Of a stretch of DNA of 39,698 nucleotides, positions 5,862 through 39,698 are shown in pieces. The position numbers were made by a program, and so were the translations under genes. Numbering within the stretch: the stretch's first letter is position 1; each line of letters begins with the position of its first letter. This DNA comes from a virus, in IMG/VR virus record IMGVR_UViG_3300006176_000003, positions 1 through 39,698 of that record. The stretch is one strand, 5' to 3'. Below the pieces are notes generated by a model. It was not told the origin of the DNA. It made no database searches and was given only the letters and a program-made list of their open reading frames with translations.

Positions 5862-5900
5862 ACGGGGTCCGTAACGGGCGATTCTGTCGCGGGGTAGGGC

Positions 5901-6143
5901 TCACGGGAGCGTGACATCGGGGTAGCGCTCCGGGTTTTCGACCCATCGCACGTCGATTGCGCTGTCCACAACGATCATGACGGGCCAGTCGTTAGTCTCG
6001 GTCGCGTGCTTGATGCGCTCGCGGATGACTTCGCCGCGCTCTTGCAAGGTCTCGGCTTGCTGCGCAGTCAGTCGCATTTCCGTTGACAGTATGAGGATTT
6101 GCGAGCCCTTCGGTGCCTCAAGATTGATCTCGTGCGTGCGCAT
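5901..6143 (-). CDS. Hypothetical protein between terminase genes
   Basis: An 80-residue acidic protein starting directly at the terS stop (ATG 6143, TAA 6144-6146), so translation is probably coupled. It has a helical charged centre (LTAQQAETLQERGEVIRER) and an Asp-rich end; no cysteine and no membrane segment. I do not recognise a family. Its place, between small and large terminase subunits, suggests a virion or packaging accessory, but nothing in the sequence proves it. Confidence 0.72.
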   Translation of the reverse strand: MRTHEINLEAPKGSQILILSTEMRLTAQQAETLQERGEVIRERIKHATETNDWPVMIVVDSAIDVRWVENPERYPDVTLP

Positions 6144-6608
6144 TTACTCGCCGCTCGCACGGAACGCGTCGAGCCGGGAGCCCGGCCGATGCTCTGTCTT
6201 GATGCCGAGCGATTGACGGGCGCGCGGACCGACGCCGAGCGCCGCAGCGAGCGTGATTACCATGCCCTCAAGCTGCCGGATGACTGCGATTGCTTCGCGC
6301 TCGTCAAGCGTCGCCGCCGTGCCGTTACTAAACGCGTCATCCGCGCGCCGTTGCATAAGCTCCCACCGCTTCGTCAGCGCGTCAAGGTACTCAAACAGAC
6401 GCATGACAGCGGGCACGTCCTCGGCGCGCAACGCTTTCGCTGTCTCGCTGCGCTCATACGCGCGAAACGCTGCGCGTGTCTCGGTCAGCCAGCGGTTAGG
6501 AAGTCGCGGAAACGTCAGCGCCGTCGCGGTCATCTCCGCGTCGCCGAGCGAGCGACCGGCACGCGCTCGCGCGCTGTCATCGGCGAGATTACGCGGGCGA
6601 CCGGCCAT
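6144..6608 (-). CDS. terS: Terminase small subunit-like protein (P27-like)
   Basis: Recognises phage DNA and hands it to the large subunit. The 154-residue product has the typical opening of P27-type small terminases (MAGRPRN), a central helical part (YERSETAKALRAEDVPAVMRLF and following) and a C-terminal segment LGVGPRARQSLG resembling the P27 tail. It is first in the head operon. The start has no SD; CATACT lies 6 bases before ATG, and a perfect 7-base inverted repeat (6606-6612 with 6628-6634) covers start and box. The family call is moderate because small terminases diverge strongly. Confidence 0.8.
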   Translation of the reverse strand: MAGRPRNLADDSARARAGRSLGDAEMTATALTFPRLPNRWLTETRAAFRAYERSETAKALRAEDVPAVMRLFEYLDALTKRWELMQRRADDAFSNGTAATLDEREAIAVIRQLEGMVITLAAALGVGPRARQSLGIKTEHRPGSRLDAFRASGE

Positions 6609-6634
6609 GCACTAAGTATGCAATAACGTGCATG
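6606..6634. promoter_or_regulatory. Perfect inverted repeat over the terS start
   Basis: CATGCAC (6606-6612) and GTGCATG (6628-6634) form a perfect 7-base inverted repeat with a 15-base spacer. The spacer holds the minus-strand CATACT box, and the left arm overlaps the terS start codon. It may be an operator for the head operon or a terminase recognition site; the sequence alone cannot decide. Confidence 0.5.
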
Positions 6635-6827
6635 ATGTGCCCCGAAAGTGCGTCACATTTGTAACGCTAACCGTCACCCGTCTGAGATCAAAACGTCACA
6701 AAATAGGGCCAAAATGGGCATTTCCGCATTGATTTCAATGAGGGTACGGTGGTCCGCTGCCGCTATTTGCCGCTAGACTTTTGACGACTTCGTAACGATG
6801 TGACGGCGTAGCTGGGTGCATATCTGC
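6635..6827. other. Intergenic control region between the head operon and a plus-strand gene
   Basis: No convincing gene. The stretch carries a TGAGATCAAA motif at 6683-6692 and an AT-richer part around 6690-6750 with short A and T runs. It divides the minus-strand head operon from the plus-strand ORF at 6840, so it may hold promoters for both. I see no clear -35 hexamer and no terminator. Confidence 0.5.
6683..6692 (+). promoter_or_regulatory. TGAGATCAAA motif upstream of the head operon
   Basis: Exact copy of the motif also found at 11001 and 35960. It lies about 65 bases upstream of the presumed terS -10. Its repeated presence in gaps between genes suggests an operator or activator site; no binding protein is proven. 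Confidence 0.45.
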
Positions 6828-6833
6828 TACGTT
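6828..6833 (+). promoter_or_regulatory. -10-like TACGTT for a leaderless start
   Basis: TACGTT preceded by TGC (extended -10 form), ending 6 bases before ATG 6840. This matches the spacing seen at many other starts here and is the best evidence that the plus-strand ORF is expressed. There is no good -35. Confidence 0.4.
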
Positions 6834-6839
6834 GAGTGC

Positions 6840-7028
6840 ATGAATAATCACCCCGTCGAGCGCCGCTCGCGTCTGCGCCGCGGGCGCGCTGTAGAATCCA
6901 CACATAAGGGCACGCCGCGCAGCGTCGAGCGCACGAGCAAGGAAGCGCCACGCGTTGACCCATGTGTCGGCTGCAATGACTGCCCGTGCAAGAGCACGAG
7001 CCGCGCTGTCGAGCGCCGCTACACCTAG
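6840..7028 (+). CDS. Small basic Cys-rich protein with VER repeats
   Basis: A 62-residue ORF on the plus strand, isolated between two minus-strand operons. Short repeats (PVERRSR, AVESTHK, SVERTSK, AVERRYT) are interrupted by a cysteine cluster CVGCNDCPC. Third codon positions are mostly G or C in this frame. A TACGTT box 6 bases before ATG fits the leaderless pattern. It is convergent with the gene ending at 7046, with a hairpin between. No family recognised; a zinc-binding nucleic-acid or anti-host protein is possible. The opposite strand also has long open frames, so it is uncertain. Confidence 0.45.
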   Translation: MNNHPVERRSRLRRGRAVESTHKGTPRSVERTSKEAPRVDPCVGCNDCPCKSTSRAVERRYT

Positions 7029-7034
7029 CCCACA

Positions 7035-7059
7035 CCGCACGCACGCTAGTCTAGTGCGG
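7035..7059. terminator. Hairpin between convergent genes
   Basis: CCGCAC (7035-7040) pairs with GTGCGG (7054-7059) across a 13-base loop, right between the ends of the plus-strand gene (7028) and the minus-strand gene (7046). No T-run follows on either strand, so termination would be weak; the placement is the main argument. Confidence 0.4.
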
Positions 7060-7252
7060 GCTCGTCCTCGGTGCCGTTGAGTGTGTTGCTCAAGCCCCAC
7101 CATGCAAACCGATCATATGCATGATCGAGCCTATGTGTGCCAGCGTTGCGCTCATAGTGGTCGCCGTCATGTGAGCGCATCATGTGATGTCGTAACGGCT
7201 CGCTGTCATCCTCAATGCCGCCCGTGATGTGCACATGTCTGCGCAGTATCAT
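7046..7252 (-). CDS. His-rich small protein, unknown
   Basis: A 68-residue product from ATG 7252, which overlaps the stop of the upstream gene (ATGA). It is rich in His, Asp and Arg (RHHMMRSHDGDHYERN) and ends in an acidic tail. It is the last gene of the small-gene operon that runs from 10820 to 7046. No family recognised. The His/Asp pattern could bind metal, but no HNH or HD arrangement is clear. Confidence 0.65.
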   Translation of the reverse strand: MILRRHVHITGGIEDDSEPLRHHMMRSHDGDHYERNAGTHRLDHAYDRFAWWGLSNTLNGTEDEPALD

Positions 7253-7470
7253 CGCGGGTCGTATGACTTGATCCGTGTGCTGCAAAGCTCCATGAGCTTA
7301 CGTCTTGCCGCATTGAGCTTGTCTTGTGCGGCTTCGTATCGAGCCCACATCTCACTATTGCCTTGCCGGTGAAACGTGCCGGTCATCGCATCGTCAGCAT
7401 CGCAAAACTCTTTGTCTGCAATGGTAAAGTCGATGGCAGCGTTGAAAATCTCGTGTGCCTCTGCAAGCAT
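7249..7470 (-). CDS. Small helical protein, unknown
   Basis: A 73-residue product. ATG 7470 is chosen over longer in-frame options because GGGGAGA lies 7 bases upstream. It is acidic and helical (MLAEAHEIFNAAIDF, then YEAAQDKLNAARRKLMELC), resembling a short coiled coil. It starts just after the previous gene's stop and ends by ATGA overlap. No family recognised. Confidence 0.7.
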   Translation of the reverse strand: MLAEAHEIFNAAIDFTIADKEFCDADDAMTGTFHRQGNSEMWARYEAAQDKLNAARRKLMELCSTRIKSYDPR

Positions 7471-7471
7471 G

Positions 7472-7726
7472 TCATTCTCCCCGTAGTTGCTGACTGACAG
7501 TAACGGGCTGCGACAGCGTGCTACGCGTGCGACGAACGCTCGCCAAACGCGAAAGCCTACGCCGTCCGTCAGCCGACTTGCCGAGCGCGCGATATTCGGC
7601 TTTGCGTGCCTTGATCCAATCGCCGTCGTGCTTGATTTCATGCCCGGTCGCTTCGTAAGCGTGCTTGCTTGATAGCGGCACGCGATTCCGCTCGCGCCGA
7701 GCTTGCTTTGCGGTCGATCCGCTCAT
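7472..7726 (-). CDS. Small basic protein, unknown
   Basis: An 84-residue, strongly basic product (KQARRERNR, WIKARKAEYRALGKSADGRRRL). It overlaps the gene before it by ATGA and leads into the next gene with 1 base between. Its charge suggests nucleic-acid binding. No known family seen; the C-terminal part (RTRSTLSQPVTVSQQ) is low-complexity. Confidence 0.65.
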   Translation of the reverse strand: MSGSTAKQARRERNRVPLSSKHAYEATGHEIKHDGDWIKARKAEYRALGKSADGRRRLSRLASVRRTRSTLSQPVTVSQQLRGE

Positions 7727-7866
7727 GACTTGCGAGCCTTGCGAACGATCTTCGTGCGAACGGCTCGCGCAGCCGTCAGTAACGCGCGAATATCGTCATC
7801 CGTAGGGCCATCGACAAGCCGCAGCTTGCGCGCGAGCTTGCGCGCCGGAAAGTTGCGCGGCTTCAT
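7723..7866 (-). CDS. Very small basic protein, unknown
   Basis: A 47-residue product from ATG 7866, which overlaps the stop of the membrane-protein gene. It is basic, with FPARKLARKLRLVDGPTDDDIRALL in the middle and RTKIVRKARKS at the end. A longer in-frame reading is blocked by the better-supported neighbours. No family recognised. Confidence 0.6.
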   Translation of the reverse strand: MKPRNFPARKLARKLRLVDGPTDDDIRALLTAARAVRTKIVRKARKS

Positions 7867-8000
7867 GCTCCCACGAGCCGCGACAGCGCCGCCCAAATCG
7901 GGGTAATGTGCGTCAGGATAAACGCGAGCACGATGACGCCGAGCACCGAAATTGCGCAGCCCATGCAACCAAGCGGGCTCGCGGTAACTTGTCCGTTCAT
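7863..8000 (-). CDS. Single-pass small membrane protein
   Basis: A 45-residue product with one clear membrane segment (AISVLGVIVLAFILTHI, residues about 16-32), a short N-terminus containing CMGC and a short C-terminus. The start at ATG 8000 is fixed by GGAGG 8 bases upstream, one of the best ribosome sites here. It lies in the small-gene operon, far from the lysis genes, so superinfection exclusion or membrane modification is as likely as a holin role. Confidence 0.75.
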   Translation of the reverse strand: MNGQVTASPLGCMGCAISVLGVIVLAFILTHITPIWAALSRLVGA

Positions 8001-8230
8001 GAAATGTACCTCCGTATTTCGCTCTGTAGTGCAACGTCGAGCGCCGCAAGCGCGCGGCATGGTCCGCAGTCCCCGCAGTCTGCGCTAGGGTCTGACATCG
8101 CGCACGCGATAGCCGAGACTTGCATAAGCGCGCGGATTGTCGGGACTTGCAAAGTAAACGTGTCGGCTTTGTTGTTTTCGACAGCGAAGTCAAAAACCTT
8201 TTCCAGATGACCGGCTAGCTTGATGTCCAT
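7997..8230 (-). CDS. Small Cys-containing protein, unknown
   Basis: A 77-residue product starting inside the stop of the upstream gene (TAATG at 8228-8232). It has a hydrophobic/helical first half (HLEKVFDFAVENNK, VPTIRALMQVSAIACAM) and a compact CGDCGPC motif near residue 55, which could bind a metal or be redox active. No family recognised. Confidence 0.7.
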   Translation of the reverse strand: MDIKLAGHLEKVFDFAVENNKADTFTLQVPTIRALMQVSAIACAMSDPSADCGDCGPCRALAALDVALQSEIRRYIS

Positions 8231-8829
8231 TACGCGACCGCCGCAGCGACGTGCTCGCGCGCATGTATGCCGCCAGCGATTTCCTCGTCAGTCGCGTCTA
8301 GGCAACAGTCGCGAAAGCGATCCTCAACGCCCGCGTAGCCTTGTCTCGGCGAGCTTGCATGACGGTCAAAAGCGTACACGCCGCCATCGCCGTCCTTACA
8401 AAGCGGGGTCATCTTTTCCAATTCACTCGCGAGCTTAGCATGGAGATCGGCGACCATGTAGGCACCCTCCGCAGCGGTGCGAAAACGGCGTGCCGCAAGC
8501 TCAAAAAGCCCGTCCTCATACGCGAGCGAGCCCCGGCTATTCGCTAAGCTCAGCGCCGAAGCTGCCGCGTAAATCTCCGTCATGATGCCCGAGTAAGCGA
8601 AGTCGCCGGGCTGCGAGTTTGCCGCCATACCGCGCGCGATGATTTCAAGTCGCATGTCCTCGCGCCAGCTTGCCGTCGAGCGTTCGCGCTTAGCTTCGCG
8701 TACCCGCTTGCACTCTAGGCAATCGCCGTGCGGATTGCCGCGCTCCGGGTTTGGCTTTCCTCTGTTCGTTGCGCCGCACTTTTCGCACGGCTTGATCGGT
8801 GAGCGTGCAGTAACGTCCTTTGTTTCCAA
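8230..8829 (-). CDS. Zinc-ribbon protein, about 199 residues, unknown
   Basis: The start is TTG 8829, since GGAGG lies 7 bases before it; a TTG two codons upstream would touch the ribosome site. The N-terminus carries a zinc ribbon, CEKCGAT and about 18 residues later CLECKR. The rest is helical with conserved-looking stretches (AYEDGLFELAARRFRTAAEGAYMVADLHAKL). It has its own promoter (8884-8913) behind a tandem repeat. Probably nucleic-acid or RNA-polymerase related, but unproven. Confidence 0.72.
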   Translation of the reverse strand: METKDVTARSPIKPCEKCGATNRGKPNPERGNPHGDCLECKRVREAKRERSTASWREDMRLEIIARGMAANSQPGDFAYSGIMTEIYAAASALSLANSRGSLAYEDGLFELAARRFRTAAEGAYMVADLHAKLASELEKMTPLCKDGDGGVYAFDRHASSPRQGYAGVEDRFRDCCLDATDEEIAGGIHAREHVAAAVA

Positions 8830-8854
8830 GCCCAAACCTCCGTAACCGTTTTCT

Positions 8855-8896
8855 GTCGATACGCTGCCGTACCGTCGATATGTACCCTACCGTACC
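8855..8896. repeat. Imperfect tandem repeat overlapping a promoter
   Basis: Two units: GTCGATA-cgctg-CCGTACC (8855-8873) and GTCGATA-tgtacccta-CCGTACC (8874-8896). The second unit contains the minus-strand -10 (TAGGGT, 8884-8889), and the first lies just downstream of it. The layout is that of a pair of operator half-sites. Confidence 0.55.
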
Positions 8897-8913
8897 GAGC
8901 GCATGCTTGTCAA
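8884..8913 (-). promoter_or_regulatory. Sigma70-like promoter
   Basis: On the minus strand TTGACA (8908-8913) is followed by an 18-base spacer and TAGGGT (8884-8889). It would drive the zinc-ribbon gene starting at 8829 and the seven genes after it. The -35 is perfect, the -10 weak. Confidence 0.6.
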
Positions 8914-8935
8914 GCCCCTTGCGTTTGACGCGATT

Positions 8936-9118
8936 CTAACCGGCTAGGAAGCGCTCAGCTTGCTCATATGTGTCAACGGTTCCGACGCGCTTTGCACGGC
9001 CGTCTTGACGCTCCCACAGAGCATAACGGCTGACAGCGTAGAGCTTGCCGTCAGCGTCCGCGCGATAGCTCCGCGATTCGCGTATGTAGCGGTAGCCGTC
9101 CTCCGTGCTCGCGGTCAT
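8936..9118 (-). CDS. Small protein, unknown
   Basis: A 60-residue product from ATG 9118, overlapping the upstream stop by ATGA. Rich in Tyr, Arg and Asp (YRYIRESRSYRADADGKLYAVSRYALWER), it looks like a small beta-sheet protein. It is the last gene before the internal promoter region at 8830-8935. No family recognised. Confidence 0.68.
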   Translation of the reverse strand: MTASTEDGYRYIRESRSYRADADGKLYAVSRYALWERQDGRAKRVGTVDTYEQAERFLAG

Positions 9119-9339
9119 GATGCGATGATGGTCGCCGTTGCGGTTTGTGTCGCGCGGTACTCGGCTGCGACCGCTTCGTAGTGCTTGCAATGATGCCGGT
9201 AACGGAAGCCCTTGCACGGGCAGCCGTCGAGCAAGTTGCCCGGCAGCGATTCGCCCGTGTCCGGGTCCGTGTAATGCCAAGCCCATCCGCGAAGCTCCGC
9301 ACCGATTGCCGCGTCAGCTTCCGCGTAATCGCCGCTCAT
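9115..9339 (-). CDS. Small SWIM-type zinc-finger protein
   Basis: A 74-residue product with the pattern CPC-(8)-CKH near residue 45 (GCPCKGFRYRHHCKH), which fits the SWIM zinc finger CxCx(n)CxH, preceded by a short beta-like stretch HYTDPDTGESLPGN. SWIM fingers bind DNA or protein partners and occur in recombination-linked and transposase-like proteins. The start ATG 9339 overlaps the preceding stop. The motif is seen; the role is unknown. Confidence 0.72.
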   Translation of the reverse strand: MSGDYAEADAAIGAELRGWAWHYTDPDTGESLPGNLLDGCPCKGFRYRHHCKHYEAVAAEYRATQTATATIIAS

Positions 9340-9518
9340 GACAGCCCGTCGTTGCCGACATAATCGACAGTCCAATCTTTGACCGTATAATCGCTGTCGC
9401 CGAAGCACGAGCCGTCCGACGCTGCCAGCGCGTCAGCGACAGCCGTGCCGATGGCATCGAGCCCGACCGAGTTGGTTTCGACCACGACGCGCACGCGTAG
9501 CTCGATCATGGTAGTCAT
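9336..9518 (-). CDS. Small acidic protein, unknown
   Basis: A 60-residue product (start MTTMIELRVRVVVE) with a regular beta-alpha-beta look and an acidic C-terminal half (SDYTVKDWTVDYVGNDG). The layout recalls small ferredoxin-like folds. ATG 9518 overlaps the stop of the membrane-protein gene. No family recognised. Confidence 0.66.
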   Translation of the reverse strand: MTTMIELRVRVVVETNSVGLDAIGTAVADALAASDGSCFGDSDYTVKDWTVDYVGNDGLS

Positions 9519-9772
9519 TCCGGCACCGTAGTACTCAGCGCCGAGCCTATGCCGCCCGTAACGGTCGGCGCGGGGCTGTACGGGGCTTGTGGGGCTAGTG
9601 CCGAGCCGAGCGACACAAAGACCCATATTGCCAGCGCCACGAGCGCCACGGCCGTTATAACGGCGCAAGCTGCTGTCAGCCGCCCGACGCTCCGCTTGAC
9701 ACCCGCAAGGTACGGGTCGCCGAGCGTAACGTCATCATCGGGCTCAGGTATCCACCGCTGCGCCGGTTTCAT
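9515..9772 (-). CDS. Single-pass membrane protein
   Basis: An 85-residue product with an acidic cytosolic N-terminus (PEPDDDVTLGDPYLAGVKRSVGR), one strong membrane segment (AACAVITAVALVALAIWVFVS, residues about 34-54) and a Pro/Ala-rich outer tail. This is the commonest layout of actinophage orphan membrane proteins. It overlaps both neighbours by ATGA, within the small-gene operon. Confidence 0.75.
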   Translation of the reverse strand: MKPAQRWIPEPDDDVTLGDPYLAGVKRSVGRLTAACAVITAVALVALAIWVFVSLGSALAPQAPYSPAPTVTGGIGSALSTTVPE

Positions 9773-10080
9773 GACTTCAACTCGGCAAAGCGAGCCTCCA
9801 TGATGACGAGATCGGCGAAGCGCTGCGCTTCGTTATTGTCCGGGTCTCCGGTCACGGTCGCGCGCATGAGCCCGATGAAGTCGAGCGCTTCGCCGCTGAC
9901 GGAGCCGTCGCCGTTGATGTGCATGTCGGACGGGTCCGCAATGAGAATGTCGCCGGGCTCAAGCGAGCCGATCCAAGCGTAAAACCCCGCGTCGCGTTCG
10001 TCCTCTCTGATCCATGCGTCGCCGATTGTCGCATAGAGTGTGCCGTCGCTGCGGTAGCTGCTAAGCCGTGTCGCGGTCAT
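9769..10080 (-). CDS. Acidic protein, unknown
   Basis: A 103-residue product. ATG 10080 overlaps the upstream stop (ATGA) and has GGAGG 9 bases before it; an ATG at 10086 is possible but too near the ribosome site. It is strongly acidic with a beta-rich first half (LYATIGDAWIREDERDAGFYAW, GDILIADPSDMHING) and a helical end (EAQRFADLVIMEARFAEL). No family recognised; anti-host or DNA-mimic roles are only possible because of the charge. Confidence 0.7.
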   Translation of the reverse strand: MTATRLSSYRSDGTLYATIGDAWIREDERDAGFYAWIGSLEPGDILIADPSDMHINGDGSVSGEALDFIGLMRATVTGDPDNNEAQRFADLVIMEARFAELKS

Positions 10081-10244
10081 GACCATGATCCTCCGTAAAC
10101 GAGTTTGCGAGCCTTGCGCGGCTCATTCTGTGCCGTGTCGTTGAGTACCCGCGCCGCGCGGGGTCCGTCGTGCTTTGCCTTGCGCTCAGCCGCACGCTTA
10201 CGCGTTGCCTCACGCTCGCACCATTTGTCACTCTGCCATTGCAT
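10077..10244 (-). CDS. Small basic protein, unknown
   Basis: A 55-residue product; ATG 10244 is supported by GGAGG 8 bases upstream. It is highly basic and helical (REATRKRAAERKAKHDGPRAARVL), suggesting nucleic-acid or membrane binding. It starts within the 3' end of the gene upstream. No family recognised. Confidence 0.68.
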   Translation of the reverse strand: MQWQSDKWCEREATRKRAAERKAKHDGPRAARVLNDTAQNEPRKARKLVYGGSWS

Positions 10245-10410
10245 CGCCGGTTCCTCCGTTGCCGTTTGCCGTTTCGTTATTACGTCGCTCGATGCGTCGC
10301 CGTTCGACGCGTGCCAGCGCGGGCCAGTCCGCGCAAATCGCCGCAAACTCCGCTGCGACTTCCTCCGGTGTGAGCCAGCGCCGACGCTCGCCCGTGCGCT
10401 GCTCCGTCAT
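10228..10410 (-). CDS. Small protein, unknown
   Basis: A 60-residue product from ATG 10410, overlapping the upstream stop. It opens with a basic stretch and then LTPEEVAAEFAAICADW, a helix typical of small adaptor or DNA-binding proteins, and ends Asn/Gly-rich. No family recognised. Confidence 0.66.
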   Translation of the reverse strand: MTEQRTGERRRWLTPEEVAAEFAAICADWPALARVERRRIERRNNETANGNGGTGDAMAE

Positions 10411-10820
10411 GACGCGAAGTCCGAGTGATCCGCGCCGCTCTTGACCCATCCGAAAGCCATGTGATTTACGTCGCTCGTGCTGATACCTTGATCGGGGTTA
10501 CGCCGAGCCTCACGCGTGCAAAGCCCGTGCCGGATTGTCTGCCAGTCGCCGTACACGCCCGCGCGGAGATCGCGCTGCACGGTATCCCATTCGGTCGCTT
10601 CGGCTTGCTGCGCCGCGCGAACCGTCATCGGGTCTGAGCGACCGCCGCCGAGCGTTACGCTCTTGCGCGAGCGATGCCAGCGCTCGTGCTGCTCAGCTTC
10701 GTAAACCGCGATAGTCTCAAGCGAGTAACGCGCCACGTCGCCGCATGTGTCGCAGAGATTTGCGAAGCCGTCGAGTGCGCCGGGTCCGGTCGCTGCTACG
10801 GGGTTGGTGGTAACGCTCAT
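10407..10820 (-). CDS. Unknown protein, first gene of the small-gene operon
   Basis: A 137-residue product; ATG 10820 has GGAG 7 bases upstream. The N-terminal part contains CDTCGD (a lone cysteine pair), the middle YEAEQHERWHRSRK and the C-terminus HMAFGWVKSGADHSDF. It lies downstream of a control region with two 26-base repeats (10898-10985). No family recognised; as leading gene of the operon it is likely expressed early. Confidence 0.72.
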   Translation of the reverse strand: MSVTTNPVAATGPGALDGFANLCDTCGDVARYSLETIAVYEAEQHERWHRSRKSVTLGGGRSDPMTVRAAQQAEATEWDTVQRDLRAGVYGDWQTIRHGLCTREARRNPDQGISTSDVNHMAFGWVKSGADHSDFAS

Positions 10821-11000
10821 GTCGGGTCTCCGATTCGCCGGGGGTTTGTCCCGGTCGCCGTCATCATCATCGCGCCGAGCGTGTGCGTTCAGGTCGGATG
10901 ATTCGGTAACAGGCTTGCAACGGAAAGTGCCGTAAACAAAGAGACACCGCGCGGATCGCATGAATCGGCTACAGGGTTGTAACGGGAAGATGACGGCCGC
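10821..11000. other. Divergent control region
   Basis: No gene. It separates the minus-strand small-gene operon from the plus-strand cassette and holds the pair of 26-base direct repeats. I do not see a convincing minus-strand -35/-10 pair, although the operon must start here. Confidence 0.5.
10898..10985. repeat. Two 26-base near-identical direct repeats
   Basis: ATGATTCGGTAACAGG with its following bases (10898-10923) recurs as ATGAATCGGCTACAGG with its following bases (10960-10985), 62 bases apart, differing at five or six positions. Both lie upstream of the minus-strand gene at 10820, which suggests binding sites for a regulator of the small-gene operon. Confidence 0.55.
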
Positions 11001-11010
11001 TGAGATCAAA
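11001..11010 (+). promoter_or_regulatory. TGAGATCAAA motif beside the cassette promoter
   Basis: Exact copy of the dispersed motif, ending 9 bases before the -35 of the strong plus-strand promoter. This is the position of an activator site or an upstream operator. Confidence 0.5.
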
Positions 11011-11019
11011 ACTAGGTAC

Positions 11020-11049
11020 TTGACAAGCTCCGGGCTAACGTGGTATTGC
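11020..11049 (+). promoter_or_regulatory. Sigma70-like promoter of the plus-strand cassette
   Basis: TTGACA (11020-11025), 18-base spacer, TATTGC (11044-11049). Transcription should begin near 11057, which is also an ATG opening an 18-codon frame overlapping the next gene's start; this could be a leaderless leader peptide. Confidence 0.65.
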
Positions 11050-11090
11050 TTCCGGTATGACGTTAGCCCGGCACAAGCGGGGTAAGCAAA

Positions 11091-11417
11091 TTGGCAATGG
11101 CAGCACACCGTAAGCGGATGGCAGTACCGGCCGGGATTTACTCGGGCCGTGCGGAAGTCGTGCCGCATGAGGACGGGTTTGCCCTTGCCTTGTGGGGCGC
11201 GCGCAACGTCACGAACGGCCGAGCGATTCGCGACGGAGCACGTTATAAGCCGCGCGAGCTTGAGCGCTGGATCGCCGACAAGCAACTTGTCGAGGGTGAC
11301 ATCGTAAACGTGACGTTCGCGCGCGTGTCGCCGCATATCTCGATGGTGCTGCGCATGTCGAGACCGCGCAGCGCATCGCGGCTCAAAGGTCGTCAAGTAG
11401 CGTTACGATCAACGTAG
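11091..11417 (+). CDS. Stand-alone orphan-domain protein, related to the AAA+ N-terminus
   Basis: A 108-residue basic protein. TTG 11091 has GGGG 8 bases before it; ATG 11097 is the alternative. Residues about 15-85 match the N-terminal domain of the AAA+ ATPase at 28436-29842: shared pattern G-Y-GRA-VV-HE, AL-LWG, then IR--AR--P and VT--R-SP. I recognise no described family. It is first in a cassette with its own promoter, followed 39 bases later by a secreted-protein gene. It may bind the ATPase, its target or a shared ligand. Confidence 0.75.
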   Translation: MAMAAHRKRMAVPAGIYSGRAEVVPHEDGFALALWGARNVTNGRAIRDGARYKPRELERWIADKQLVEGDIVNVTFARVSPHISMVLRMSRPRSASRLKGRQVALRST

Positions 11418-11456
11418 AATCGGGCGGGCGCACAGGAAACACACGGAGGGCATAAC

Positions 11457-12050
11457 ATGCGATACAAAATCCGCCAGCGCGGAGCCGCACGGGTTGCGGT
11501 CATCATTGCCGGGGCTGCCGGTCTTATCGGCGCGGGAGCGTTCGTGGCAACGGCTGCGGTCGTAAGTGCGCACAACGTCCAGTCAATCTACGGGCTCGTG
11601 GATTGCCAGGGTGATTACGCGGTGTACGTTCAAGCGGACGTGTACGGCGGTCACAAGCTGCGCGTTGAGCTTGACGGCACGGTCATTTCGGACCTTGCTT
11701 ACAACGGCTCGTCAGCCGTGCAAGGGTTCGGGCCGTTTACCGGCAGCGGTGCGAGTGCGGGCGAAACGATTACCGCACAAGCAACGCAACCCAACGGAAC
11801 CGCTGAGGGATCGCTACAGACGGGCAAGCTGACGCTTGAGGGTGACGGCTGTTCGTCGCCGAGCCCGTCGCCGACAGCTACGCCGACAGCTACGCCGACA
11901 GCTACGCCTACCCCCACCGCAACCCCGACGCCGACGCCGACGCCGAGCGCAACGCCGACCCCTACGCCGAAGCCTACGCCGACGCCCAAGCCGTCGCCGA
12001 AGCCGACGCCACCTAGCGTGCCGATTCCGGTTACCGGCGCGGGGTTCTAA
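11457..12050 (+). CDS. Secreted Pro/Thr-rich surface protein
   Basis: A 197-residue product with GGAGGG 7 bases before ATG. It has a basic N-terminus and hydrophobic signal segment (RVAVIIAGAAGLIGAGAFVATAAV, about 12-35), a small beta-rich domain with one cysteine pair (Cys near 50 and near 131) and a 60-residue tail of TPTATPTP-type repeats. It ends PIPVTGAGF, resembling an LPxTG sorting signal but lacking the membrane anchor and basic tail, so it is probably secreted or loosely wall-bound. It has its own terminator. Lysogenic-conversion or surface-masking roles are inferred. Confidence 0.82.
   Translation: MRYKIRQRGAARVAVIIAGAAGLIGAGAFVATAAVVSAHNVQSIYGLVDCQGDYAVYVQADVYGGHKLRVELDGTVISDLAYNGSSAVQGFGPFTGSGASAGETITAQATQPNGTAEGSLQTGKLTLEGDGCSSPSPSPTATPTATPTATPTPTATPTPTPTPSATPTPTPKPTPTPKPSPKPTPPSVPIPVTGAGF
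11872..11907 (+). repeat. Tandem 12-base repeat inside the Thr/Pro tail
   Basis: Three adjacent copies of a 12-base unit (GACAGCTACGCC and phase variants) encode the repeated TATP of the tail, followed by degenerate ACGCC-type units up to about 12010. Such repeats can change copy number by slippage. Confidence 0.7.
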
Positions 12051-23941: not shown

Positions 23942-24419
23942 GAGCCCATTTTACCAAAGCGTAAAGGTCGGCCGGTGTGTCAAACGTCGCATCCGGTCCG
24001 CAATCGACGTTAGCCCGTGTCAGCGCGTCGGCCGCGTCGCCGCTGCAAATCTCCGTACCCGCGAGCCCGAACCGCAGCCGCGTGCCGGTCATGAGCGACA
24101 GCGCGACGCTCACGAAGGTTAGGAAGCCGTAACCCTCGCCGACTGACGCGCGCATCGCAGCGACCGCGTTAGCAGCTTCGCCCGGCGCATACGGCGGGGT
24201 CTTGATGACGTAATCCTCGCCCGCGTACTTGCTCACGTTGCCCGCCGTTACGCCGCTAGGCAAAGCCTCGATGATTCCGCCATCGCTGTCCGTAACCATG
24301 AAAACATGGTTGTAATGCGCGGCCGGTACGTCGCCGTACTTGTGACGCTGCGCAAAGCGAATGAGCGCCGCTATCGGGTCGCCGCGTTTCGACAGAAACC
24401 CAATGTCGCCCGCTTGCAT
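23928..24419 (-). CDS. Permuted NlpC/P60-like hydrolase (YiiX-type)
   Basis: A 163-residue product from ATG 24419, overlapping the previous stop (TAATG). GDIGFLSKRGDPIAALI opens the domain as in permuted papain-like NlpC/P60 enzymes; the His is in AHYNHVFMV (H38), the acidic residue in IIEALPSG, and the nucleophile in TEICSGDAADAL (C125). In this clan the order His before Cys marks the permuted form. As the only hydrolase next to the holin-like gene it is the best endolysin candidate, though many relatives act on other amides or esters. Confidence 0.78.
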   Translation of the reverse strand: MQAGDIGFLSKRGDPIAALIRFAQRHKYGDVPAAHYNHVFMVTDSDGGIIEALPSGVTAGNVSKYAGEDYVIKTPPYAPGEAANAVAAMRASVGEGYGFLTFVSVALSLMTGTRLRFGLAGTEICSGDAADALTRANVDCGPDATFDTPADLYALVKWAHGKS

Positions 24420-25342
24420 TACGCCGGTCCGATGTCCTCGACCGTCAACCAACTATAGATCGACGTGTTGTTATAAGACGACAGCGTGTTAGCTGCCGAT
24501 GACCATGCGTTGAGAGTGTATTGATGCACGCCCGCAGTCGGGGTGTCAAGAAACTCGATGGTGCATTGCTCATACGTTGACGAGACAACGGTGGTCATGT
24601 ACTTGAAACCTAGCTGCGTGCTGCCGTCGCGGTACACGGCGGTAACGCACGTCACCGCAGCGGACGGGGTGAAATTGAAAAAGCCACGGACGCGGATTTT
24701 GCGGTTCGCTTGAGTATTGACAACGCATGTCAGCCCCGGTACAACGGTGCCCGGCGCAGCGGTGCCGGTGTTCGTGCCGCCCGTGCTGACTGCGGATGCA
24801 AGTAAGCCCTCGGAGCGCATCGGTGTAAACGGGTACGCGTCCGGGTTATTCGTGCCGGTCGTGCCGTTGATGTTCGCGGTCAGGATTGACGCCGCGCCCG
24901 TGCCGACGTAAATGTGAGCGAGCACGAGACTATCGGCCGGTGTCGCGGGCACCGTAGGCGAAACGGCGGGAGTGCCGGTAACGTCTTGCAAAATTGCGGT
25001 GTTCGATCCGCCCGCGTAATAAGCGTCCTCGATGGTCGCGCAAATCAAGTCAATGCGCGGATGCGAAGGGTCCGCAGTCGGCACCGTAACGGTCACGTTC
25101 GCGTCGTTGTAAACGTGATACTGACCCTGAGCCGGTGCGCTGTCGGTGCCGCTTATCAGCGCGAAGCCGGATGACACGATGACGGACATTGCGCCGCCGC
25201 CGTTTTGCGTTACTGCAAGGTCGGTGCCGTGCAAGATACCGTCACGCGCGCCCGACAAACAGCTAATAAGCTGCCGCAGCACTTCGGGCTCCATGTTGTC
25301 AGCACGGATGACGGGTCCGACCGTGCCGGTATGTAGCGCCAT
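24419..25342 (-). CDS. Minor tail / fibre-like protein
   Basis: A 307-residue product. N-terminal part (MALHTGTVGPVIRADNMEPEVLR, YHVYNDANVTVTVPTADPSHPRIDL, DAYYAGGSNTAIL) matches a baseplate-fibre module common in actinophages; C-terminal part is a beta-sandwich-like head (YRDGSTQLGFKYMTTVVSSTYEQCTIEF). It probably recognises the cell surface. It is apart from the tail operon and sits between two hydrolase genes, which suggests it works with one of them. Confidence 0.8.
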   Translation of the reverse strand: MALHTGTVGPVIRADNMEPEVLRQLISCLSGARDGILHGTDLAVTQNGGGAMSVIVSSGFALISGTDSAPAQGQYHVYNDANVTVTVPTADPSHPRIDLICATIEDAYYAGGSNTAILQDVTGTPAVSPTVPATPADSLVLAHIYVGTGAASILTANINGTTGTNNPDAYPFTPMRSEGLLASAVSTGGTNTGTAAPGTVVPGLTCVVNTQANRKIRVRGFFNFTPSAAVTCVTAVYRDGSTQLGFKYMTTVVSSTYEQCTIEFLDTPTAGVHQYTLNAWSSAANTLSSYNNTSIYSWLTVEDIGPA

Positions 25343-26308: not shown

Positions 26309-26641
26309 ATGGACAGCACGGTCGGGGCAATCCCCGCGCCGCGTAAACGCGCACCGCGTCATGCGGTCGAAGTGGTCTCGATACACGCGCCCGCTTCGGA
26401 CCTTTCGACTGAGGAACGGGTCGTTAGCATGACCGATGCCGAGCGCATTTTGCTCGCGGCAACGCTGCTCAATACACACACGACGGCATTGCTCGCCGGT
26501 CGCTCAGCCGAGCACGGTAAGCGACGGCTTGAGGCATGGCAAGTCATCGGCGTAATCTTCGCGACGCTAACGGGGCTCATACTCGCGGGCTCCGCGATTT
26601 ACTCGACGTTTTTTGGGCTGTCGCACTCGATCTTGCACTAG
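26309..26641 (+). CDS. C-terminal-anchored membrane protein
   Basis: A 110-residue plus-strand product inside a minus-strand region. The N-terminal 75 residues are soluble with a helix (TDAERILLAATLLNTHTTALL); the C-terminus has a membrane segment (WQVIGVIFATLTGLILAGSAIYSTFF, about 76-101). No SD is present; a TACGCT lies 9 bases before ATG. An isolated, oppositely oriented membrane gene is typical of morons such as superinfection-exclusion genes. No family recognised. Confidence 0.72.
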   Translation: MDSTVGAIPAPRKRAPRHAVEVVSIHAPASDLSTEERVVSMTDAERILLAATLLNTHTTALLAGRSAEHGKRRLEAWQVIGVIFATLTGLILAGSAIYSTFFGLSHSILH

Positions 26642-26847
26642 CCCCGGTTGTAACAAGTTGGCGACGGGGCGCGCGTAACGGCCGCGCCGGGTTTACCATG
26701 AACGGCAGAGCCGTTGAGGACGGGGACGAGTAACCGGACTTTGCCTACTTGACTAGGCACACTTCAAGCCCGCGAGCTTGACCGATTCTCCGGGGCTACA
26801 CGGTGCCCGAAATGCCGCCCGGCTGTTTCTGGACACGAGCGACGGGG
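26642..26847. other. Gap between convergent genes
   Basis: No supported gene. It holds a GGTTGTAAC (26646-26654), seen also at two other control regions, and the tandem hairpins at 26742-26781. Confidence 0.5.
26742..26781. terminator. Two adjacent perfect hairpins between convergent genes
   Basis: TGCCTA-(6)-TAGGCA (26742-26759) and TCAAGC-(6)-GCTTGA (26764-26781) are two perfect 6-base stems, each with a 6-base loop. They lie between the plus-strand gene ending at 26641 and the minus-strand gene ending at 26848. No T-runs, so bidirectional termination is possible but unproven; a structured RNA or protein-binding site is the alternative. Confidence 0.45.
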
Positions 26848-27072
26848 CTAACGGGGCTTGTGGGCTCTCTGAGTGCCCTTAGCGGCGATGCTGCGCGGGT
26901 CATCGGTGCCCGCGAAGCGCTCGACGGTCGGCCGCAGCGCTGCGAGCCGCGCGAGCCGAGCCCGTAGCAGCGGGCGAGCCGCGTTACTGTACGGGCTCAC
27001 GAACCGGCGCACGGTGCCCGCGTAAAGCTCGCGCAGCCCGTCAGCCGAGCCCGTGTCAAGCAAGCCGCTCAC
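26848..27072 (-). CDS. Small Arg/Ala-rich protein, unknown
   Basis: A 74-residue product from GTG 27072, which overlaps the preceding stop (GTGA). Helical and basic (LRELYAGTVRRFVSPYSNAARPLLRARLARLAALR). Last gene of the AAA+/VWA transcript. No family recognised; an adaptor of that pair is possible only by position. Confidence 0.62.
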   Translation of the reverse strand: MSGLLDTGSADGLRELYAGTVRRFVSPYSNAARPLLRARLARLAALRPTVERFAGTDDPRSIAAKGTQRAHKPR

Positions 27073-27239
27073 GGCTTGAGGCTCGCGGGCTCGCACGTTG
27101 AGCAAATCACGGGGATCAACGGATGCCCCGCGTCAGCGTGCCGCGCTTGATCCGCGCGCCGTATCTCGCGCGCGCAGTCGGTGCAGTAAACCGATGCGAT
27201 GCAATCGCAGTCGCGGCCGGTTTTCGCGCTGTAGCTCAT
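27069..27239 (-). CDS. Cys-rich 56-residue protein
   Basis: Start ATG 27239 with GGAG 8 bases before it, 3 bases after the VWA-like gene stop. The 56 residues contain six cysteines: CDC, CTDC and CSTC, plus His, enough for a zinc site or two (start MSYSAKTGRD). The tight placement and ribosome site make it credible despite its size. No family recognised. Confidence 0.7.
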   Translation of the reverse strand: MSYSAKTGRDCDCIASVYCTDCAREIRRADQARHADAGHPLIPVICSTCEPASLKP

Positions 27240-27242
27240 GGT

Positions 27243-28181
27243 TCACACTCCGTAAACGGACTTGCTTGCCGCCATGCGCTGCGCGTTTTCCGCGCGCCGC
27301 TCGTCCTCGTCAAGCTCGTCATCCTGATACCGCAGCATGGTCTCGGCTATGAAAGCCTCAGCCGCAGCGAGCGACCGCACGTTATGCGGCACGGTGATGT
27401 CCGCGAGCAACGCGCCCGTGTAAGGCTTCGGCGAGCCCATGTCGCTGTCGCAAACCATGTCGGTGCTCATGCGAAACGCAAACCGCAGTAGGCGATTGAC
27501 GCCGCCGTGACACATGACCGCAAGCGCGTGCTCGCTCACAACTTCGTCAGCTTCCTTGACAGTAACGGCCATGTTCATGATGCCCGCAGACATCTCGGAC
27601 GCGTTGACCGCGCGCAGCACGACGCGATAGCCGAGCGATTCAAGCAAGTCGGTCAGCGCAACCGCAACCGCGCCAGTCCATTCCAGCGACATCGCATCCT
27701 CGGCCGCGTGCGCGCTCGCGGTCGTGTGAATGACGAGCGTGCCCTTGCGCGGCTGCTCACGGCGCACGCGCTGCTCCCAAAACGCTTGATCCTTGACCGC
27801 GCCGCGCCGCCAGCGCTCATATTCGTAAGCGCTCCCGATGCGCGTACCCTCGGGGCGATAATTGCGACGCTGTACGCGCGTTTGCTTGCTCCGTAGCGCG
27901 ATGTCATCCGACAAGCGGTCGCGCACGGCTGCGGCTTTGTCGCTGAGTTTGTATGTGCTCATGGTCTCGGCAAGATTGACCGCGTTGACCCCACGGTAAA
28001 ACTTGTCACCGCTGCGGCTGTAGTAACTGTCAGCCGGATCAAAGCTCAAGTACGCGACGGCTTGCTTGAGCGCCGCGTTATTCGCGTGCGGCTTCGGGAT
28101 CGGCAGCACATCGGCGAGCGTAAGGTCCGCGTCAACGGCCGTCGCGCGTCCCCCAGTGTTTCGCGTAATCGTGATGCTCAT
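27243..28181 (-). CDS. VWA-like protein, partner of the AAA+ ATPase
   Basis: A 312-residue product (GGGAG before ATG). Residues about 147-250 look like a von Willebrand A fold: GTLVIHTTASAH at the place of the MIDAS strand, then WTGAVAVALTDLLESLGYRVVLRAV and EHALAVMCHGGVNRLLRFAF. The canonical DxSxS is replaced by H-x-T-x-S, so metal binding may differ. The N-terminal 140 residues are basic and helical. Its neighbour is a MoxR-like AAA+ gene, as in MoxR/VWA chaperone pairs (RavA-ViaA, CbbQ-CbbO). It has its own promoter copy. Fold call moderate. Confidence 0.68.
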   Translation of the reverse strand: MSITITRNTGGRATAVDADLTLADVLPIPKPHANNAALKQAVAYLSFDPADSYYSRSGDKFYRGVNAVNLAETMSTYKLSDKAAAVRDRLSDDIALRSKQTRVQRRNYRPEGTRIGSAYEYERWRRGAVKDQAFWEQRVRREQPRKGTLVIHTTASAHAAEDAMSLEWTGAVAVALTDLLESLGYRVVLRAVNASEMSAGIMNMAVTVKEADEVVSEHALAVMCHGGVNRLLRFAFRMSTDMVCDSDMGSPKPYTGALLADITVPHNVRSLAAAEAFIAETMLRYQDDELDEDERRAENAQRMAASKSVYGV

Positions 28182-28217
28182 GTCAGGCTCCCTAGTCGGT
28201 GGTCGGGTATGGGGCTC

Positions 28218-28246
28218 ACTCTGAGCGCTCCCCGCGCGCGTGTCAA
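28218..28246 (-). promoter_or_regulatory. Promoter of the VWA-like gene
   Basis: Minus strand: TTGACA (28241-28246), 17-base spacer, CAGAGT (28218-28223). A second CAGAGT lies upstream at 28259-28264, 41 bases away. The same arrangement occurs before the AAA+ gene. Confidence 0.65.
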
Positions 28247-28383
28247 GCCCTCGTCACCACTCTGTTACACGGACCGATTCTAACGGGCTGCACGGCGGCC
28301 GAAACCCTCGGACGCGTAAAGCTGCGGGCCGTAGGCTGCCGGGCCGTGTAGCCCGTCCTAACGGCTCCCACGGGGCAAACGAA

Positions 28384-28408
28384 AGCCCCGGCCGCGTTGA
28401 CCGGGGCT
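28384..28408 (-). terminator. Terminator of the AAA+ gene
   Basis: On the minus strand AGCCCCGG pairs with CCGGGGCT across 9 bases, followed by TTCGTTT. It shares GGGGCTTTCGTTT with the terminator at 39545-39580. Confidence 0.8.
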
Positions 28409-28435
28409 CCCGCTAGGGTGTGAGATTCGGAAGGG

Positions 28436-29842
28436 TTAGCGCGCCGCCCGTGCGGGCTGCGGGACGAGCCCGCGCTGCGCGGCCGACTGAGTGTCGGCAA
28501 CGGACCATGCCCCGAAGTAATCGGCACGGAGCTTCGCGAGCGTGATGCCCGCTTCGCGCAGCGCGATCCAATCGGACAGCTTGCGCGTCGAGTAAACCCG
28601 GCGCAGTCCGCTCGCGTTGATGACTTCGCGGATCGCCGTGCGGAAGTCCGCAAGCTCGATCAAGTCGCTGTCACGGAGCACGCCGCGCGCCCGCGCTCCC
28701 TCAAGCAATCCGGCTTCGTACTCGATGTCATAGTCAACGGTCATGAAATTGAGCCGATCAAGTGTCGCGGTGTCAAGCTCATTGCGGCCGACGTACACGC
28801 GCGAGCCCGTGCCCCAAGTGTTGACGGCTGCGATGAAATGGAAGTCAGCGTGCCGCACGACGCGCTCATTGCCGATGCGCTCGCTGCAAAACATGTGACC
28901 GTTCGCAAGCGCCGCGTTGAAAGCAAGCACGGTGTTCGCGTCCGCAGCGTCAAACTCGTCAGCGAGGTACACGCCGCCATTCTCATAGAAGTCAACGAAC
29001 GTGCTCGTGAGGTACACGAAACCGTTGCCATCGGCAGCGGGCTCGCGGCGACCCATAAGCTCATACTTCGCGGTTTCCTGACCGAAGCTGTCGAAACCGA
29101 ACCGCGCGCCGAACCGCTCAGCCGCGAGCGCTGCAATCGTTGACTTGCCGCAACCGGACGGGCCGACAAGCGCGTGATTCAAGCGGTAACCGCGATAATC
29201 GCGCGCGGTCATGCGCTGGCAAAGCTCGTCAAGCGCCGACTGCGGCACGAGCGAAGCGGCAACCGCAATCGCGTCGATGATGCGACCAAGCATCGCATCC
29301 TTTTGCGCTTCGTCCTCAAGCTGCGCGGCAGCCGCTTCCGCGATTGCGCGACCGATGCGCTGCGCCGTTAGGCGAGCTTCGTAATCGCGTGCAAGCTGCT
29401 CACGCTCCGCGTTACGCGCTGCGAGACCGGCAGCCGCTTGCGCTTGCGCCGCCGCAAACTCGGCAGCCGCAGCCGCCGCGCCCGCAGCCGCGTCATCATC
29501 AATCGCTGTCGTGTCGGCCGACTTCGCATCGGCGACGGTTTTAGCAAAGCGCTCCGCGTCGCTCGCGTTGAGCCCCGTGTCGCTGTCGCTGTCCACAACG
29601 GTTAGGGACGTTAGCAGCGACTTGCGCGGCGACTGCCGCACTAGGGTCACGTCGAGCACGGTGCCGAGCGCATGGTAGGGCATGTTCGCGGGCACAAAGC
29701 GCGCCGCGTTGCGGATGGGCTGCGAGCCCGTCGCGGCGTGAACCATTCCCCAAAGGCTGAGGGCCGAGTGTCCTTCGTGCGCTACCACAATGGCGCGACC
29801 CTTATACTGTCCGAGCGGGCTGTCGAGGCTTTTCCGTGTCAT
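28436..29842 (-). CDS. MoxR-like AAA+ ATPase with orphan N-terminal domain
   Basis: A 468-residue product (AGGAG before ATG). Domains: residues about 8-82, an orphan domain also found in the 108-residue protein at 11091-11417; about 115-185, an Ala/Glu-rich coiled-coil-like linker; about 215-440, an AAA+ module with Walker A GPSGCGKST (227-235), Walker B GGVYLADEFDAAD (DE 295-296), sensor 1 IAAVNTWGTG and LDRLNFMTVDYD. The MoxR/AAA_5 type remodels proteins, often with a VWA partner; the VWA-like gene follows. Target unknown. Confidence 0.88.
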   Translation of the reverse strand: MTRKSLDSPLGQYKGRAIVVAHEGHSALSLWGMVHAATGSQPIRNAARFVPANMPYHALGTVLDVTLVRQSPRKSLLTSLTVVDSDSDTGLNASDAERFAKTVADAKSADTTAIDDDAAAGAAAAAAEFAAAQAQAAAGLAARNAEREQLARDYEARLTAQRIGRAIAEAAAAQLEDEAQKDAMLGRIIDAIAVAASLVPQSALDELCQRMTARDYRGYRLNHALVGPSGCGKSTIAALAAERFGARFGFDSFGQETAKYELMGRREPAADGNGFVYLTSTFVDFYENGGVYLADEFDAADANTVLAFNAALANGHMFCSERIGNERVVRHADFHFIAAVNTWGTGSRVYVGRNELDTATLDRLNFMTVDYDIEYEAGLLEGARARGVLRDSDLIELADFRTAIREVINASGLRRVYSTRKLSDWIALREAGITLAKLRADYFGAWSVADTQSAAQRGLVPQPARAAR

Positions 29843-30080
29843 GGCTTCCTATCTCCTAGCGGTGGTCCGGTGTCTGCCGGGCTCGATGCTCACTCTGAGG
29901 CTAGCCCGTTAGCAAGTCAACCCCCGTTGCCACTCTGTTACAACCGTTACCAGCTTATGCGATCTGCGGGCCGTCCCGACTTCCGGGCAGGGTCGGTCAC
30001 CATGCCCCCGATCTCGTCGGCTCGCGCCGTGAGCTTACACCCGGCCGAGCCCGTTAGTACGCGCCGTCACCAACCTGTTA
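29843..30080. other. Control region upstream of the AAA+ gene
   Basis: No gene. It carries the AAA+ promoter (29892-29920). A terminator for the tail operon that ends at 30081 is expected here, but I see only weak GC-rich stems around 29970-29990. Confidence 0.55.
29892..29920 (-). promoter_or_regulatory. Promoter of the AAA+ gene
   Basis: Minus strand: TTGACT (29915-29920), 17-base spacer, CAGAGT (29892-29897), with a further CAGAGT at 29932-29937, 40 bases upstream. The following leader also resembles that of the VWA-like gene (GGTGGTC near CCTAG). Confidence 0.65.
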
Positions 30081-30638
30081 CTAACCGGCAAGCGTGAAAA
30101 GATTGCCGATCATGTTCGTTGACGGGCCGACGTTGCCCGCGACGGTAAAGACGGCAGCCGCGCCCGCGTAAAGCCATTGAGCTTGCACATGGTACGTCCC
30201 CGCGGGCATGGTCGCGTAGAGCACATACGCGCCGCTGCCGAGCGCGTTAGCGTTCGACGGGTCCATCCCGACGATGCCCGACTGTGCGGGGTTGCCGTTG
30301 ACATCGTTCGCCGGGGTAGTTGACGCAAAACTTGTCGTAAACACTACGCGAGTGATCGCGAAGGTTGACGTGCCCGAGACCCCGTAAAAGAGCCCGATGC
30401 TGCCGAGAAAGAGCACGGGCTGCGCGCGCGTAAGCGTAAACGCCCAATCGAACGGAGCCGTTGTAAAGCTCGCCCATGTCGCCGTGCCCGGAGTAAGCGA
30501 CTGCGATGCGGTCATCGCGATATTCGACCCTATGCTTGTGAGCGAGCCCGCTGTAAAGCTCTCGCGTCGCGTAAACCGCGCGTCAAGGTCCGCAAGCTGC
30601 TCCGCAAGACTGACGGGTCGCTTTTGACGGCTAGGCAC
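30081..30638 (-). CDS. Tail-tip protein, paralogue B
   Basis: A 185-residue product from GTG 30638. A short helical start (MPSRQKRPVSLAEQLADLDARF) is followed by a beta-sandwich-like body rich in Ser, Thr and Gly, ending LFTLAG. It has the same length, same start pattern and same end as the gene before it (30641-31198), so the two arose by tandem duplication. Last gene of the tail operon; a receptor-binding or tail-tip decoration role is inferred. Confidence 0.75.
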   Translation of the reverse strand: MPSRQKRPVSLAEQLADLDARFTRRESFTAGSLTSIGSNIAMTASQSLTPGTATWASFTTAPFDWAFTLTRAQPVLFLGSIGLFYGVSGTSTFAITRVVFTTSFASTTPANDVNGNPAQSGIVGMDPSNANALGSGAYVLYATMPAGTYHVQAQWLYAGAAAVFTVAGNVGPSTNMIGNLFTLAG

Positions 30639-30640
30639 GG

Positions 30641-31198
30641 TTAGCCCGCAAGCTGCATGACTAGGAACGTGACGTTAGCCGTGCCCGAAATCGGGCCGGG
30701 TACGTCAAAGCCGGTGGTCGCCCCGCCGTCGCAAAAGTATTGCAGCGCAAAGTACCATGAGCCCACGGCCGGTCCTGCGGGCAGCACGCCGCTAATAACG
30801 AACGTCGCCGACTGCGTTATGCCCGTGACATTCGCGACGGTTGCCATGCCCGACTGTAGCGGCACGCCGGTAATCGCATCGGCTTGCACGGGTCCGTCGT
30901 TATTGAGGCACGCGAAGCGCGCACACACATACGATGATGTGCCCGTCGCGCTGCCGTAGAATTGCCCCACCGTGCAGTAAGCGAGAATCGGGATCGGCCG
31001 GATGGTCGGTGACACGACAGCGTAATTGAAAGCGACGTTAGCCCACGACGCGCTAAAGCCCATCGCGGAGTTTGCGCCCGTGCTTGACACGAGCACCGTT
31101 GCGCCGTTCGCCGGGAAGGTCTCAAGTTTTGTCGCGCGCGCTTGCAACGCTGCGATTTCTTCCGCGACACTCGTGCGCCGCTTTTGGATACTAGGCAT
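30641..31198 (-). CDS. Tail-tip protein, paralogue A
   Basis: A 185-residue product starting in the stop of the preceding gene (TAATG). Start MPSIQKRRTSVAEEIAALQARATKLETF, body beta-rich (GFSASWANVAFNYAVVSP, GQFYGSATGTSSYVCARFACL), end FLVMQLAG. The N-terminal helix probably docks on the baseplate, and the body may bind the host surface. The two paralogues share the start and the end much more than the middle, which suggests diversifying receptor contacts. Confidence 0.75.
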   Translation of the reverse strand: MPSIQKRRTSVAEEIAALQARATKLETFPANGATVLVSSTGANSAMGFSASWANVAFNYAVVSPTIRPIPILAYCTVGQFYGSATGTSSYVCARFACLNNDGPVQADAITGVPLQSGMATVANVTGITQSATFVISGVLPAGPAVGSWYFALQYFCDGGATTGFDVPGPISGTANVTFLVMQLAG

Positions 31199-39621: not shown

Positions 39622-39698
39622 TTACGCGGTGCCGCCCTTGACGAAGCTCGCGATGTTCCAAGTCGTGCCGTCGAAAACGAAGGTCACAACGTCAACCG
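39622..39698 (-). CDS. Head-decoration-like protein, 3' part (gene crosses the contig join)
   Basis: Continuation of the gene starting at 321. Bases 39676-39698 duplicate 1-23. From 39675 the frame continues (FDGTTWNIASFVKGGTA) to TAA 39622-39624, adding 17 residues to a total of 124. The exact frame match across the join shows that the genome is circular or circularly permuted. Confidence 0.8.
   Translation of the reverse strand, partial: VDVVTFVFDGTTWNIASFVKGGTA

Follow-up and report, generated by a model that had tools for sequence, protein, structure and literature searches.

NorQ and NorD, the chaperones of FeB insertion into nitric oxide reductase, combine a MoxR/CGN-type AAA+ ATPase with a VWA partner. 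NorD is a 70 kDa protein whose MIDAS is needed for the target (PMC9976466). CobS and CobT comprise related AAA+ and VWA domains, and a phage cobST forms a two-gene cluster in tailed viruses (PMC8651126). Viral AAA+/VWA pairs have been described either as cobST (PMC8651126, PMC11288001) or as MoxR-vWA chaperones (PMC7824862, PMC2147016, PMC7911831), and both the jumbo-phage MoxR-vWA genes (PMC7824862) and, in Bacillus phage 0305phi8-36, a MoxR pair (PMC2147016) are viewed as chaperone and co-chaperone. In ATV p618/p892, a viral MoxR ATPase has a VWA protein as its binding partner (PMC4124505); ATV is an archaeal virus with extracellular tail growth, and the ATPase is a virion component. Phage AAA+/VWA pairs are thus already known. 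What appears to be new here is the partner, DUF7192, as a short, MIDAS-degenerate VWA adaptor distinct from true phage CobST. DUF7192 is a Pfam family without an assigned function, and a literature search found no paper on it and no description of it as a VWA relative.

The window, meaning the whole stretch of DNA analyzed, is a 39,698-base virus record (IMG/VR IMGVR_UViG_3300006176_000003). Its ends (1–25 and 39676–39698) share an identical 23-base overlap, and contig L103 (1–9675), which comes from another metagenome and is 99.99% identical to the window over 9,673 bases, starts with bases that match the opposite end of the window. The genome is therefore very probably complete and either circular or circularly permuted; the record carries no end-repeat flag despite the overlap. 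Its large terminase is closest to those of Pontimonas and Streptomyces phages, suggesting that the host is an actinobacterium. Searches of the window for tRNAs and Rfam RNAs found none. The minus strand carries the late genes (terminase, portal, head, and tail) as well as the module at 26848–29950, and all four open reading frames (ORFs) of the original prediction are present there.

The module had been placed between tail and lysis genes, and the upstream half of this description stands, with minor tail genes followed by two 185-aa genes and then the module. The downstream half is not confirmed, since the 241-aa gene at 25346–26071 matches Peptidase_C39 only below threshold and 24419–25342 encodes a virion structural/minor tail protein. 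The adjoining 185-aa genes (30081–30638 and 30641–31198, minus strand), without a match in the family search, are apparent paralogs by eye, with starts and ends alike. A 110-aa ORF on the plus strand (26309–26641), opposed to the late genes and likewise unmatched in the family search, has one likely membrane helix and looks holin-like by eye. No close phage relative spanning the module was found: one candidate (L010) is partial, and L103 stops at window position 30026, short of the AAA gene.

The motor gene (28436..29842, minus strand) encodes a 468-aa AAA+ protein with an N-terminal region of unknown fold, an Ala-rich linker, and an AAA core at approximately residues 200–430. The product matches phrog_249, whose description is “porphyrin biosynthesis” (E 7.7e-44), and Pfam AAA_5 (PF07728; E 1.1e-12). 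It has Walker A (GPSGCGKST) and Walker B (VYLADEFDA) motifs and keeps sensor-1 N341 together with R363, R405, and R420. The P loop, the Walker B Asp-Glu, the sensor-1 Asn, and the key arginines are invariant in eight diverse relatives, and the window protein has them all. Among the solved structures nearest to the AAA profile are midasin, CobS, CbbQ, and NorQ. These invariant motifs and structural relatives place the protein in the MoxR/CGN group as a predicted active ATPase, in keeping with the MoxR-like assignment made from sequence. In a tree of AAA proteins, the window falls near L021, L013, and L024 with weak support, and this placement was therefore not used. Seven weak bacterial AAA loci, most of them from Planctomycetes, were left out of the tree because they lack DUF7192 and the one inspected is a generic AAA+ rather than a MoxR protein.

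The partner gene (27243..28181, minus strand) encodes a 312-aa protein that matches DUF7192 (PF23822) with an E value of 3.7e-10 and 40.1 bits, against a gathering score of 27 bits. BLAST of this protein against phages returned nothing, and profile searches were therefore used; wide alignments proved too diverse for scanning the collection. The AlphaFold model, made with 64 relatives, has a pLDDT of 76 overall and approximately 90 in the core. It runs in the order β1 (148–154), α1 (163–182), β2 (186–197), β3 (200–209), two helices (217–223 and 226–238), β4 (262–264), and a final helix. When this model is compared with 350,542 PDB chains in Foldseek, the top four matches are NorD VWA domains from NorQD complexes. 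As a check on the fold match, we modeled a better-sampled DUF7192 relative (L043; pLDDT 91.5, pTM 0.87), and its five best PDB matches are again NorD VWA domains in NorQD complexes (E 9.9e-6 to 1.4e-2, probability up to 1.00); below these, Ku and von Willebrand A1 domains predominate, with insignificant E values. The TM-scores of the NorD matches are low (0.24–0.36), so the likeness is one of local structure and order rather than of close superposition. The start of the VWA topology is present in the models and the last strands of a full VWA are absent, and DUF7192 is accordingly modeled as a partial or divergent VWA domain. The VWA-like fold claimed for this protein has thus held up, with a predicted structure that is VWA related and specifically NorD related.

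A structure search of BFVD returns other DUF7192 proteins first and then phage CobT and VWFA proteins. Aligned by hhalign with a profile of 26 bacterial CobT VWA domains, DUF7192 scores 33.9, with a probability of only 35%; the controls reach at most 23.4 (40 column shuffles), at most 20.5 (12 unrelated families), and 17.7 (reversed profiles). This alignment spans β1, the MIDAS loop, α1, and β2. A DUF7192 sequence search of the PDB lists CobT at an E value of 0.68, insignificant by itself. Matches to Cas12f in the PDB search (E 0.02) cover only a short basic stretch and were judged to be chance.

A MIDAS occurs in many VWA domains, though not all, and the full motif (DxSxS…T…D) is absent from DUF7192. 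The window protein has H152-x-T154-x-S156 at the expected DxSxS position, confirming the altered motif first noticed there, and the region is in the same register in relatives carrying IHTTTP (L038) and IDTTTP (L046). Of 64 aligned family members, 30 have Asn and 18 have Asp at position 1; position 3 is usually Gly or Ser and position 5 Ser or Asn, and there is neither a conserved Thr after β3 nor a conserved Asp after β4. Conserved instead are G116, G127, W135, K209, R230, and G249. Judged from the alignment, MIDAS decay extends throughout the DUF7192 family, and HxTxS in the window is one version of it. Since the MIDAS of NorD is not required for NorQ binding (PMC9976466), DUF7192 could, by analogy, retain contact with the motor and reach its target by another surface.

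The AAA and DUF7192 genes are almost inseparable. Among 80 IMG/VR loci fetched by the AAA alone and counted with annotated phages and the window, 83 of the 84 with enough sequence contain a DUF7192 gene, on the same strand as the AAA in every paired locus and downstream of it in 82. The gap has a median of 2 bp, and 74 loci have the genes within 200 bp of each other. Among the annotated phages examined, DUF7192 lies 3′ of the AAA in Staphylococcus G1, Listeria A511 and LP-037, Lactobacillus 3-521, Acinetobacter Ab15, Rhizobium X2_24, Gordonia Sephiroth, and crAss cr118_1; the order is reversed in Enterococcus CECAV_04, where DUF7192 is upstream. One AAA locus with 2.4 kb of downstream sequence (L061) has no detectable partner, and in another (L028) the two genes are 4 kb apart. 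Within L028, many genes at 5416–11820 are preceded by a repeat that reads …HTRIRTM in frame; this could be a promoter or a ribosome-binding leader present in repeated copies. Searching the phage collection for the AAA yields 236 Staphylococcus and 70 Listeria records, and searches with DUF7192 sequences of these two groups give identical numbers (236 and 70), with many close relatives among the records. In bacterial assemblies, DUF7192 is beside the AAA in five of five strong AAA loci; in one bacterial class, it is present in only 3 of 289 genomes, versus 42 of 58 for CobT_C.

The co-conservation expected of the whole module therefore applies to these two genes and not to the two small ORFs. 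The six-Cys ORF (27069..27239, minus strand; 56 aa), which starts 4 bp after the stop of the VWA-like gene and contains CxC, CxxC, and CxxC motifs, may encode a zinc-binding protein. Family searches gave no significant match, and none of the surveyed phage loci has a counterpart next to the pair, so we regard this ORF as local. The basic ORF (26848..27105, minus strand; 85 aa) has weaker support as a gene and a TTG start; it overlaps the six-Cys ORF by 37 bp, has a GC content by codon position of 0.73/0.58/0.81, and found no match in family searches. Both had been counted as module parts and fall outside the conserved module.

Near-identical promoter-like elements precede the AAA gene (GTAACAGAGTGGCAACG - TTGACT - N17 - CAGAGT; 29892..29941, minus strand) and the VWA-like gene (GTAACAGAGTGGTGACG - TTGACA - N17 - CAGAGT; 28218..28268, minus strand). 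The window has exactly two occurrences of TTGAC[AT]-N17-CAGAGT, both at these sites, against an expected 0.00, a figure that is optimistic because the pattern was picked after both sites had been viewed. Each site is preceded by a 17-bp element (GTAACARRKTGGYRACG), the four copies of which all lie inside or at the edges of the module; the next best scores are clearly lower. The third copy (GTAACAGGTTGGTGACG; 30065..30081, minus strand), at the upstream edge, has no TTGAC box, and the fourth (GTAACAAGTTGGCGACG; 26650..26666, plus strand) is at the downstream edge on the opposite strand, 8 bp past the stop of the 110-aa ORF. Two weaker relatives of the element lie ahead of a TTGACA box at 10906–11000 (plus strand). 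The proposal that the module has its own promoters is thus partly supported by these elements, but a generic sigma-70 scan found no promoter excess. The pattern fits a self-contained cargo unit with putative promoters.

The pair differs in several ways from the described systems. DUF7192 has the NorD VWA domain as its best structural match, yet it is only approximately 300 aa long, has a degenerate MIDAS, and has no linked target gene; cNOR (NorBC) was found neither among the window families searched nor among recurrent neighbors of the pair. The vWA of the jumbo phages carries a fused metallopeptidase domain, whereas DUF7192 is short and is not described in those reports. In the phages examined, CobS is preceded by a long CobT with an intact MIDAS, whereas DUF7192 is short and follows the AAA. 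In cyanophage S-RIM32 and Rhizobium phage N1_15, CobS stands farther from its partner, which comes first, is 712 or 847 aa long, and has an intact DWSGSM or DCSGSM motif; CobT_C (PF11775) is present in the CobT of N1_15 and absent from the window partner. Because these are two distinct phage architectures, the DUF7192-type pair should not be named CobST. The “porphyrin biosynthesis” label has been propagated in phrog_249/RefSeq phage annotation to AAA proteins partnered by DUF7192, not CobT.

After removal of near-duplicates, the neighborhood survey comprises 71 loci, and any third gene family is found with the pair in at most 8 of them. The recognizable neighbors are clamp loader, helicase, Cas4 exonuclease, SSB, ParB, RecE, and RecT genes, and terminase or portal genes near the pair are often on the opposite strand. 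These features favor a function other than particle assembly. The window departs from the pattern in position, its pair lying among late structural genes. A role confined to the virion is less likely than remodeling of a host or non-virion complex. We read the pair, with a probability of about two in three, as a NorQ/NorD-like remodeling machine that most likely acts on a host complex or on a phage complex outside the virion. The observed basis is family membership, intact ATPase motifs, a fold relationship, tight linkage, and a degenerate MIDAS. Following the NorQD mechanism (PMC9976466), the AAA+ protein would form a hexameric, ATP-driven ring, on which DUF7192 would be seated as a short VWA-fold adaptor, with its long β2-β3 hairpin (186–209) as a candidate “finger” inserted into the pore. 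The N-terminal part of DUF7192 and the conserved basic residues K209 and R230 would be turned to the target, in place of a working MIDAS. ATP hydrolysis would then force a single bound protein complex into another conformation; the gene neighborhood suggests that this is a host or non-virion phage complex. During infection, the pair probably disassembles or remodels some protein complex.

The pair might instead be a virion-assembly chaperone that remodels tail or head proteins during morphogenesis, as suggested for the jumbo-phage pairs (PMC7824862) and for ATV p618/p892; p618, itself in the virion, binds virion proteins as well as a VWA protein (PMC4124505). Its position in the window, with tail-type genes on one side and a structural protein on the other, agrees with this idea. 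We nonetheless consider it unlikely, because the pair in relatives usually lies by replication or small accessory genes, away from structural genes or on the strand opposite to them, and because it recurs in very different phages (crAss-like, Herelleviridae, and others) with no structural gene co-conserved. A special case of a host target would be a counter-defense or defense-like device that disassembles or blocks a host defense complex, or excludes other phages. The pair occurs in many lineages, has its own promoter-like elements, and is in an accessory position in the window, as would suit moron-type cargo, and a paper on prokaryotic conflict systems makes heavy use of MoxR and vWA terms (PMC7159879). 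However, PADLOC models give only marginal, generic P-loop matches and no defense family, no linkage to known anti-defense genes was seen, and in Staphylococcus and Listeria phages the genes behave more as a fixed pair than as an arms-race gene, which makes such a device decidedly doubtful.

Hijacking of cobaltochelatase, in which a phage CobST would act with host CobN to raise cobalamin supply, has been proposed for viral cobST in haloarchaeal tailed viruses (PMC8651126). The porphyrin label of the AAA family, CobS among its nearest solved relatives, and the distant relationship of DUF7192 to the CobT VWA all point that way. Even so, we find this reading very improbable: the true phage CobST partner is the long protein with an intact motif ahead of CobS, DUF7192 has no intact MIDAS, and no CobN was found within the 39,698-base window. 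In addition, the main hosts of DUF7192-type phages include Staphylococcus, Listeria, and Acinetobacter, which are not known to use the CobNST route.

A broader form of the remodeling-machine reading, tentative and less likely than not, is that DUF7192 proteins are a phage-specific class of metal-free VWA adaptors in which a conserved Lys/Arg surface replaces the MIDAS, and that the pair is a general remodeler of one host complex targeted by phages whose hosts span many bacterial phyla, phage K and A511 included. The pair is present in more than 300 sequenced phage records, those of phage K and A511 among them, under such names as “porphyrin biosynthesis” and “hypothetical protein.” Interpreting it as a NorQD-like motor and adaptor puts a testable mechanism in place of a misleading metabolic label. 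DUF7192 would be a natural VWA adaptor that may work metal-free, and the pair points to a complex that very different phages seem to need remodeled.
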